Shown here: positions 41,634 through 44,721 of the stretch, in pieces | Position numbering within the stretch: the stretch's first letter is position 1 | How the letters are laid out: each line of letters begins with the position of its first letter | Assembly (NCBI RefSeq): GCF_900095865.1 | Contig: NZ_FMIZ01000006.1 | Coordinates: forward strand, 310,001 to 374,000 | Direction: 5' to 3' | Origin: Massilioclostridium coli | GTDB taxonomy: Bacteria > Bacillota > Clostridia > Oscillospirales > Ruminococcaceae | Length of the DNA: 64,000 nucleotides | Position numbers and translations under genes: made by a program | The notes under the pieces: generated by a model | What the model saw: only the letters and a program-made list of their open reading frames with translations | The model's database searches: none | Told to the model about the DNA's origin: nothing

Positions 41634-41945
41634 TTAAAGCTTGATTTCGATTTCTACACCAGCAGGAAGTTCGAGGCTCTGAAGAGCTTCTACAGTTTTG
41701 TTAGATGGTCTGAGAATATCGATGAGTCTTTTGTGAGTTCTCATTTCAAATTGCTCACGGCTATCTTTGTACTTGTGTACCGCACGCAAAATGGTTACTA
41801 CCTCTTTTTTGGTTGGCAGAGGGATTGGTCCGGACACCTGAGCTCCGGTGCGTTTTGCGGTTTCAACGATCTTTTTGCAAGATGCGTCGATCAGGTTGTG
41901 ATCATAACTTTTCAGTCTGATTCTGATTTTTTCTTTGACTGCCAC
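41634..41945 (-). CDS. rpsJ: 30S ribosomal protein S10 (uS10)
   Basis: The first gene of the operon encodes S10, here 103 residues from the GTG at 41945 ([20 protein letters not shown]). AGGAGG lies eight bases before this GTG; the in-frame ATG at 41951 is only two bases from that site and so less likely. Conserved parts are [20 protein letters not shown] and [21 protein letters not shown]10 also works with NusB in antitermination. Confidence 0.95.
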
Positions 41946-42025
41946 AGTCATCGCCTCCTAAAAATTTTGTTCAAGGGGGGCTGGACCAAACTTACACGTT
42001 GCCGTGTGTTTCGTGCTTGGACATG

Positions 42026-42058
42026 AAAAAACCGAAAAAACAAATTCTGTTTTTCCGG
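42026..42058 (-). terminator. Intrinsic terminator (attenuator) in the S10 leader
   Basis: On the minus strand CCGGAAAAACA and TGTTTTTTCGG form an 11-bp stem with one G-T pair, followed by TTTTTTCATG. It lies between the promoter and rpsJ, about 75 bases before the gene, so it must be read through or prevented for ribosomal protein synthesis. Confidence 0.8.
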
Positions 42059-42076
42059 AGCATGTTGCAAACACCT

Positions 42077-42179
42077 ATTTTTAACATAAACGCAGTTAAT
42101 CCTATAAGTGCGCAAGTCACCCTAGATTAAACAGCTTGGAAAGCAATGCTTTCTAGTCCTGCGGTCTGCATGTTAAAAA
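42077..42179 (-). ncRNA. Folded domain of the S10 operon leader RNA
   Basis: On the minus strand the arms TTTTTAACAT and ATGTTAAAAAT plus CCGCAG and CTGCG close a domain of about 100 nt. Inside it GAAAGCA and TGCTTTC form a further hairpin, with CTAGA/TCTAG next to it. The position between promoter and attenuator fits a regulatory leader; no known leader family was recognised. Confidence 0.55.
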
Positions 42180-42289
42180 GATTAAGTTTTGTCGCCCGGT
42201 TTGAAATCGGACATACTCCACAGAAATTCCCCACCGCAAGGATGGCCACCTTCTGCTTCATCGCATATCTTGTACAGTCATACCTCTAT

Positions 42290-42317
42290 ATTATAACATA
42301 GCTTTTTCAGATTGCAA
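42290..42317 (-). promoter_or_regulatory. Promoter of the ribosomal protein operon
   Basis: On the minus strand TTGCAA (42312-42317) and a perfect TATAAT (42290-42295) have a 16-bp spacer. Transcription would begin near 42283, giving a leader of about 330 nt before rpsJ. Confidence 0.75.
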
Positions 42318-42447: not shown

Positions 42448-43281
42448 ATGTTTCTTACGCTACAAGGATTTACCCTTTATCAGTTATTCTTTTACTTTAT
42501 CATTTATAGCGTAATGGGATGGATCATGGAAACCATCCTGTGTAGTTATAATGAGAAAAAATTTGTAAACCGTGGTTATCTCTCTGGCCCATACTGTCCA
42601 ATTTACGGAGTTGGTATGTGCTTAATTATCTTAACATTAAGCTCCTATCAAGACCGATTAACCGATCTATTCCTTGGTGGAATTTTGGTTGCCAGCACTT
42701 TGGAATATTTTACTGGATGGCTGATGGAGAAATTATTCCATACAAAATGGTGGGATTACAGCGACAAAAAATTTAATCTTCATGGCAGGATTTGTTTGCA
42801 AATTTCCTTAGCGTGGGGAGTCCTTTCACTGGTGATTATTAAAGTAGTACAACCATTTGTTAACCAGTTTGTCAATTGGATTCCTGTTAATATAGGTAAG
42901 GTTATTTTAATTGTTTTTGCTATTATTTTTATTGCGGATGCCATTCATGCTACTATTATTGCAGCACATCTGTCGAAGAAAATCCATCTTATTAATCAAA
43001 TTAAAGCAGACCTACATAATCTCTCTTTAAAATTAAATCCACATCCACAGGAAAAATTGAAAAACCTTACCATAAATCAGCTTTTTGCCAACGTTGCTTC
43101 CTATTTAAACACGAAAAAAATTGAGAACAGAGAAAACTTTCAAAAAAGAATTGCGGAATTAAAAGCAAACTATCGGCATACTCAACACAAATCTATTTTT
43201 GAGCGTCGTCTGCAAAAGGCTTTTCCTTCCATGAAATCTATACCTCGGAAAAAAGAAATAAATAAAACCACAAAAAAATAG
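42448..43281 (+). CDS. CmpB-like putative ABC-transporter-type membrane protein
   Basis: The 277-residue protein has about five membrane segments in the first 175 residues and the pattern of the CmpB/putative ABC transporter permease family (YSVMGWIMETILCSYNEKKF, GYLSGPYCPIYGVGMCLIIL, HTKWWDYS, HGRICLQISLAWG). The last 90 residues are basic and helical. Members of this family are common in Clostridia and have no settled function. The ATG follows AGGAAGAAGG; a TATAAT at 42408-42413 is a likely -10 box. Confidence 0.75.
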   Translation: MFLTLQGFTLYQLFFYFIIYSVMGWIMETILCSYNEKKFVNRGYLSGPYCPIYGVGMCLIILTLSSYQDRLTDLFLGGILVASTLEYFTGWLMEKLFHTKWWDYSDKKFNLHGRICLQISLAWGVLSLVIIKVVQPFVNQFVNWIPVNIGKVILIVFAIIFIADAIHATIIAAHLSKKIHLINQIKADLHNLSLKLNPHPQEKLKNLTINQLFANVASYLNTKKIENRENFQKRIAELKANYRHTQHKSIFERRLQKAFPSMKSIPRKKEINKTTKK

Positions 43282-43909: not shown

Positions 43910-44721
43910 TTAAGCAACGAACTGACTTCTAAATTCTATGGGAGTCAGTTTTGTTTTTGTTTGAATACATTGATTGTTGTAGAAAGAAATATATTATCAA
44001 TCAGCAAGCGAACCTGCTGAAAAGTTTTGAGTTTAACGCGATTAATTCACTCTATTTTGAGTATCGAAAAAAATTTTCCGCCAAAGCAATTATCATAAGG
44101 GTTCTCGTGTCTTGACATTGAAGGCGCAATGCTGTAAGATTTCGTCGGCTTAAAATACTTTTGAGAAGTGTATGCCCTGGTCACTGTGGAGTTGCAGGTC
44201 TGCAGTGATTTTTTCTTTCCTCTTTACAGCACGAATAGTAGACAGCACAAATCAATATTTAATTTAGTTCCAATTTTGTAAGATTCGATACTATTATCAA
44301 ACAAATCCCTGATACAAGTTTCCTCGTGGTGTATATATGATATATCTGTAACCCATTTCTAATTCGGTTTTGTGGAGGTGAAATCTCTATTTAATAGATT
44401 TGGATATTTATGAAGTGCATTTCCATAATTACGATACTTCTTTCTTCTTACTGACGATAACAGAGTATACTTTTGCATTGTACACAATATTGTCTTAGGA
44501 TTGCGGTGTATTCCTTGTCTTTCAAGCCATATATGTACTCTGTGATAACCATAAGTTCTATCGTATTTATCCTGACATTCTTTTATCTTTTGAACTATAT
44601 CTATTCTTTGTACGTATCCATAATATTCACTGCGCGATACATCAAAGAAACGACACATTGAACTGATTGGATACTGTTCTCTATGCCGATAGATTACATT
44701 GTATTTTACCTGTAATCTCAC
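43910..44721 (-). pseudogene. IS3-family transposase OrfB, frameshifted
   Basis: The first 120 residues (44721 to 44359) are intact and show ISSMCRFFDVSRSEYYGYVQ and YGYHRVHIWLERQGIHRNPK, the N-terminal part of IS3 OrfB. The rest is broken: VTDISYIHHEE-like and NPYDN pieces of the DDE domain appear in shifted frames, and the end reads TKLTPIEFRSQFVA before TAA at 43910, the common OrfB C-terminus. The catalytic domain is therefore destroyed. Confidence 0.8.

Follow-up and report, generated by a model that had tools for sequence, protein, structure and literature searches.

A putative composite leader with a transcription attenuator and a second conserved module upstream of the S10 operon of Massilioclostridium coli

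In our estimate, there is about an even chance that the region upstream of rpsJ in Massilioclostridium coli is an autoregulatory composite ribosomal-protein leader of the S10 operon, in which a transcription attenuator is combined with a second module near the ribosome-binding site (RBS). Comparison of leader sequences establishes, as predicted features, (i) membership in the Rfam family RF03136, (ii) a central stem, (iii) an intrinsic terminator, (iv) a conserved hairpin, H2, and (v) a long-range helix, LR; an antiterminator and the exchange of the aptamer hairpin P3 for LR are supported but not settled. We infer the protein ligand, the direction of control, and the translational layer; the operon itself most likely encodes the ligand, by the Escherichia coli precedent L4. 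Since the aptamer is joined to a stop signal and to a second conserved element, expression of the operon is probably restrained at several steps. Many of the ribosomal proteins are encoded in the S10-spc cluster, and the literature consulted holds little on its balancing outside E. coli and its relatives; the map of competing helices makes this regulation directly testable.

The window, i.e. the whole stretch of 64,000 nucleotides analyzed, carries the rpsJ leader on its minus strand (Table 1). The leader has an inferred start at about 42283 and a length of about 332 nt, and its minimum free energy (MFE) of -94.9 compares with -83.6 +/- 4.7 for shuffled sequences (z -2.39; 1 of 100 shuffles equally good), which bears out the folded S10-operon leader proposed in a preliminary description of this DNA. 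We take the genes of the operon to be rpsJ, rplC, rplD (for L4), rplW, rplB, and onward, the names being assigned from the translations. Between 42317 and rpsJ, the promoter scan of the minus strand lists no site besides 42317-42290, and hence no promoter-like site between the terminator and rpsJ. Over 3 kb, neither the promoter-like sites found by the pattern scan (7 versus 8.5 expected) nor the terminator-like ones (2 versus 2.7 expected) are significant alone. In 138 of the 157 near loci (see below), a loose -10-like hexamer precedes the RF03136 start by no more than 60 nt, a count that comes with no chance control. Within 41943-41959, the ATG at 41951 stands just 2 nt past AGGAGG, and a GTG at 41945, with a spacing of 8 nt, is the likelier rpsJ start. 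On the other side of the promoter, a divergent ORF of 277 aa (42448-43281), membrane-protein-like by eye, has its upstream region in common with the S10 promoter. A minus-strand ORF at 44359-44721 resembles what we take to be the beginning of an IS3-type transposase, apparently a fragment.

Table 1. Features of the rpsJ leader, in the order of transcription (positions in the window)
Feature	Position	Strand	Basis
Promoter-like site TTGCAA-16-TATAAT, extended -10	42290..42317	-	pattern scan
RF03136 S10-Clostridia aptamer, model 1-81	42189..42269	-	42.4 bits, gathering cut-off 35.1
P3, aptamer hairpin: GUCCGAUUU (42212-42204) with AAACCGGGC (42202-42194), register inferred	42194..42212	-	calculated folds, partner swapping
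Hub CCGGGCGAC, common to P3, the antiterminator-like helix, and helix LR	42191..42199	-	folds and partner swapping
LR, 5' strand	42184..42197	-	13 pairs with the 3' strand once made; partner swapping
Variable central stem, arms 42179-42166 / 42095-42078	42078..42179	-	12 pairs; partner swapping
Predicted pairing segment for the hub (antiterminator-like helix), shared in part with the base of the terminator 5' arm	42055..42062	-	forced window fold
Intrinsic terminator: 12-bp stem 42058-42032, six T 42031-42026	42026..42058	-	scan and conservation
Conserved hairpin H2, GAAACACnCGGnnnnGTGT	41994..42012	-	motif counts
LR, 3' strand	41978..41993	-	folds and partner swapping
CCCTTGAA, predicted partner of the Shine-Dalgarno region	41970..41977	-	calculated fold
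Shine-Dalgarno AGGAGG	41954..41959	-	sequence
rpsJ (S10), at the head of the S10-spc operon	41634..41951	-	ORF list

The preliminary description had matched the leader to none that is recognized. This does not hold: the Rfam search that it proposed found RF03136, over the full model and above the gathering cut-off, and in the scan of the whole window only this family and one tRNA exceeded their cut-offs. About 240 nt separate the end of the match from rpsJ of the S10 operon, which lies downstream of it, and the model spans only 81 nt of a leader of about 330 nt. H2, LR, and the pairing close to the RBS had escaped the preliminary description. At E <= 0.001, RF03136 was matched in 52 of 61 relatives (47 above the cut-off), in 167 of the 197 family genomes (161 above it), and in 165 of 291 genomes of the class (128 above it); among 14 control genomes, the matches were in B. 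subtilis and L. lactis.

For the comparison of leaders, we used a helix test that asks whether two segments of one leader pair better than partners swapped between leaders; because partner swapping ignores phylogeny, the z-values below are indicative only. The near set comprised 158 loci, 146 from the family (the M. coli genome counted) and 12 from other families of the order; the matched family genomes outside this set have mostly the weakest matches. Exclusion of L036 (rpsJ not found), of L017, L054, and L058 (rpsJ not downstream of the match), and of L087 and L109 (shorter than 200 nt) gave 152 leaders, and 150 near leaders were retained after L062 and L111, with three mismatches in H2, were dropped. 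The class/named set held 148 loci, L161 and L219 among them being without rpsJ; 66 class loci were picked by RF03136 and 80 named loci by S10 similarity only, and the RF03136 scan covered 20 of the latter. In the alignment of the 152 leaders, the conserved blocks are the aptamer, the terminator arms (CCGganaaAC...), GaaACACnCGGnnnnGTGt after the terminator, and the RBS. The distance from the RF03136 start to rpsJ has quartiles of 276, 289, and 309 nt in 157 near loci, three misplaced ones counted.

The segment between the aptamer and the terminator is occupied by the central stem. The paired arms of the preliminary description (42170-42179 with 42077-42087) lie inside those of Table 1, and the 12 shared pairs were recovered in all seven transcript lengths, the stem being held in every length folded. 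The covariation that was to be sought in rpsJ leaders is seen here: native partners exceed swapped ones with a z of -6.6 in 101 near leaders, at -0.4 and -2.4 for the controls. The fold of the same-genus locus L015 shows a counterpart stem. At 42171-42180, the stem contains CTTTTTAACA, which we take to resemble rrn boxA, the site of NusB and S10; since L015 has TTTTCAACA at this place, the likeness is probably due to chance.

The intrinsic terminator before rpsJ was also recovered as described before, and its position is kept in near leaders: a hairpin followed by at least five T in 8 nt, 14-24 nt before H2, was found in 121 of 150, with at least six T in 81 of them and a hairpin-to-H2 spacing of 19-20 nt in 93. 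In the window, this spacing corresponds to 42012-42032, and it is about 20 nt in many class leaders too, though the hairpin and its sequence vary. Among 70 class/named leaders, 45 have a hairpin with at least four T in 8 nt between the aptamer and H2 and 25 have none; in 32 of the 45, the 8-nt tail contains just four or five T.

According to the attenuation model, the hub in the 3' strand of the aptamer would have competing partners, and P3 is the proposed anti-antiterminator. With free ribosomal protein bound, the hub would be kept in P3, the terminator would form, and transcription would stop before rpsJ. With no protein bound, the base of the terminator 5' arm would be available to the hub as a partner, and the polymerase would read through. 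After synthesis of H2 and of the segment that follows it, the hub strand would pass to LR, and H2/LR beside the RBS would provide a second layer, translational or acting on stability.

Evidence for the first of these alternatives differs between the sets. P3 hardly varies in near leaders, and its covariation test is therefore uninformative there (z 0.2); in class/named leaders, P3 covaries (z -4.0, n=70). In the register of the Rfam model, 61 and 44 of 149 near leaders cannot form the two outermost pairs (UGUC:GACA), and an alternative register, GUCCG:CGGGC, is kept in these leaders. The antiterminator-like helix could be anchored in 122 of 150 near leaders, 112 after thinning. Its variable part, the hub side against the 9 nt before the terminator CCGG, gave a z of -5.6 (0 of 500 swaps as good, n=112), and its nine slid controls ranged from -1.0 to +2.3. 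For the entire helix, z was -3.0, and helices of at least 5 bp occur in 41 of the 122 anchored leaders versus 28.6. The same test in the class gave -4.5, with slid controls of -3.7 and 0.1, so it is not clean.

Folding of growing window transcripts is consistent with the exchange of P3 for LR. P3 has only three pairs in transcripts up to the U-run, which weighs against the model; in the RNA ending after H2 it has six pairs and LR none, and 19 nt further on P3 is lost and LR is formed with 13 pairs. The free fold at the U-run amounts to -69.5 kcal/mol, the forced terminator to -67.3 kcal/mol, and the forced antiterminator, with four pairs, to -64.8 kcal/mol, and the antiterminator is in no MFE fold of the window transcripts. 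Terminator formation is thus the default in the window, and kinetic effects or assistance would be required for antitermination, in these calculations the weakest step of the model. Transcription attenuation, as put forward in the preliminary description, stands as the best-supported reading in so far as a terminator is accompanied by an antiterminator-like alternative, with the reservation that the latter is weak in window energy and not clean in the class.

The weak antiterminator energy would suit a mechanism as in E. coli, where the polymerase pauses at the terminator hairpin and the pause is stabilized by bound L4 with NusA, with no antiterminator involved. The presence of a leader terminator, the E. 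coli precedent itself (in the available text of PMC10931766), and the short T-runs of the 32 class/named hairpins, pause-like rather than indicative of strong termination, are in line with it. Nevertheless, the covariation between the hub and the upstream arm of the terminator would be needless in such a leader, and RF03136 is the sole Rfam family above cut-off found in it; we regard this mechanism as distinctly unlikely.

The second conserved element of the composite leader, H2, was detected by its motif AACACnCGGnnnnGTG, up to two mismatches being allowed: 149 of the 152 near leaders contain it (5.2 expected), as do 65 of 66 class loci (0.9 expected), loci in both cases chosen for RF03136; the class count covers RF03136-bearing loci, and the 126 of 291 class genomes without RF03136 lie outside it. 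Among the 80 named loci, chosen by S10 alone, the motif is present in 55 (1.9 expected). Of the 61 relatives, 28 contain the exact pattern RWAACACNCGGNNNNGTG, with 29 occurrences in all versus 11 for the reversed pattern used as a control, and 27 of the 29 occurrences adjoin the RF03136 match of that genome; around the two others (G017 and G018), rpsJ was looked for and not found. The map of competing helices also applies to named Faecalibacterium, Gemmiger, and Acetivibrio loci. Mimicry of rRNA by H2 or the aptamer was rejected: seven H2/aptamer consensus words compared with the organism's own 16S and 23S loci and their flanks gave nothing clearly above shuffles (in the best case, 3 of 30 shuffles were as good), and the longest identity, the 11-nt GTGGAGTATGT in 16S, was judged near chance.

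H2 can also be read as a part of a short reading frame, M-x-x-x-E-T-H/P-G-x-V, that would attenuate transcription through a leader peptide. The window indeed contains the frame ATG TCC AAG CAC GAA ACA CAC GGC AAC GTG TAA, and roughly one third of the 150 leaders have an ATG 12 nt ahead of the motif. However, starts in this frame (91 of 150) compare with 79 and 42 of 150 in the other two frames, some leaders contain in-frame stops, the frame has no common end, and its codons are fixed (ACA in 145 of 150, GTG in 127 of 150), with no synonymous variation. An upstream ORF in H2 was rejected on these frame, stop, and codon counts, and we consider peptide-mediated attenuation highly improbable.

Covariation in the near leaders was also obtained for LR, which encloses the terminator and H2. 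When the 14 nt that follow the hub were tested with the 14 nt that follow H2, native partners scored -4.90 and swapped ones -2.93 (z -13.0, 0 of 300, n=140), with eight slid controls from -2.2 to +1.5; helices of at least 7 bp are found in 66 of 150 near leaders versus 27.6 with swapped partners. The two strands change together between leaders, being AAACTTA/TAAGTTT in the window and AATACTGAA/TTCAGTATT in many relatives. In class/named leaders, z was -11.1 (n=70), in a run without slid controls of its own and with segments slightly wider than in an earlier class run (n=49), where z was -4.5 and the four slid controls ranged from -1.4 to 0.0. The run with 70 leaders excluded L178, L179, and L192 (for their place), L198, leaders with more than two H2 mismatches, and named loci that lack a match to RF03136. 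When 14 short leaders were aligned with MAFFT, RNAalifold returned four P3 pairs only and did not recover LR. In the 70 class/named leaders that have both elements, RF03136 and H2 are separated by 27 to 280 nt.

Downstream of LR, the predicted pairing of the RBS leaves AGGAGG with a mean unpaired probability of 0.29 in the full leader and 0.21 in the tail alone (window). Sequestration of the Shine-Dalgarno sequence was rejected as a rule for near leaders, since their tails equal composition shuffles (3.62 versus 3.62 of 6, n=138). The C-rich segment before the RBS of near leaders is more complementary to the hub and to the RBS than its own shuffled letters are; it covaries slightly with the RBS (z -2.6) and not significantly with the hub (z -1.6). 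In the class/named loci, the hairpin P4, between the end of LR and the 16 nt before the Shine-Dalgarno sequence, gave a z of -7.6 for 69 of 112 loci, a score favored by the preselection of these loci for GTYGYRC within one mismatch.

These pairings, the class-wide P4 just before the Shine-Dalgarno sequence and the covariation of the C-rich segment with the RBS, raise the question whether the leader acts on translation only, with the RF03136 aptamer and H2/LR working on the RBS and the terminator serving as a constitutive reduction of read-through. Such a leader would agree with the terminator being the default window fold and with the 25 class/named leaders that have no hairpin and T-run between the aptamer and H2. 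It would agree as well with four Bacilli loci (Cohnella, Halalkalibacter, Viridibacillus, and Bhargavaea) in which the RF03136 match reaches the RBS and H2 is absent; they were found among the named loci scanned for RF03136, of which 16 of 20 are above the cut-off, a fifth Bacilli locus, Paenibacillus L284, being below it. The position of the terminator, kept in four fifths of the near leaders (121 of 150), and the covariation with the hub of the very segment that would antagonize the terminator speak against it, and we find purely translational control unlikely.

The attenuation model with a second module can be compared with several described systems. According to PMC7247131, RF03136 is the S10 r-leader of Firmicutes, taken from Yao et al. 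2007 and extended to Clostridia; the main text of this paper gives Clostridia examples of it with no further discussion. Our leader has in common with it the first 81 nt, i.e. the aptamer, and the gene preceded; the Rfam model, on which alone this comparison was made, does not extend to the central stem, the terminator, H2, LR, or the RBS-proximal pairing. RLC-47-1 is an rpsJ motif found in Clostridioides difficile, with 87 representatives in three genera of Peptostreptococcaceae, and it is likewise a structured 5'-UTR of rpsJ (available text of PMC11109978). In the C. difficile locus L300, 13 consecutive LR pairs close H2, and RLC-47-1 therefore probably describes H2/LR; it was reported from three genera of one family, whereas H2 was found here in nearly all of the class and near leaders. 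Because these H2 loci were chosen for RF03136, H2 is in them fused to the aptamer and, in many, to a terminator too.

If the model is right, the alternation of anti-antiterminator, antiterminator, and terminator, with the protein favoring termination, is shared with L10(L12)4 attenuation in the B. subtilis rplJL leader, as far as PMC4538822 and PMC10931766 describe it; that leader differs in the operon and the protein, and H2/LR are additional in the S10 leader, the kink-turn being no part of the comparison. With the E. coli S10 leader, in which L4 controls transcription and translation (PMC10931766, available text), our leader shares the operon, a leader terminator, and perhaps two levels of control, a likeness drawn from the published description and not from sequence homology. 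In the literature searched, which stopped short of supplements and most subscription papers, we met no description of the composite leader.

A further reading of the composite leader is that two independent ribosomal-protein leaders, the RF03136 aptamer and the H2/LR module, were fused in Clostridia and possibly sense two ribosomal proteins; we hold it to be conceivable, if on the unlikely side. Because the strand GGGCGAC is common to both modules, one strand exchange would relay the state of the first element to the terminator and then, via LR, to the RBS. Each module also occurs apart from the other: RF03136 stands alone at the RBS in the four Bacilli, and H2/LR stands by itself in C. difficile, where the search of the first 600 bases of locus L300 gave no RF03136 match up to E = 1. 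The composite leader would be a case of modular growth of ribosomal-protein leaders, and it suggests an extension of the Rfam family RF03136. Two RF03136 matches, at C24:57784-57864 and C7:3165-3243, were observed in one genome of the family (G220).
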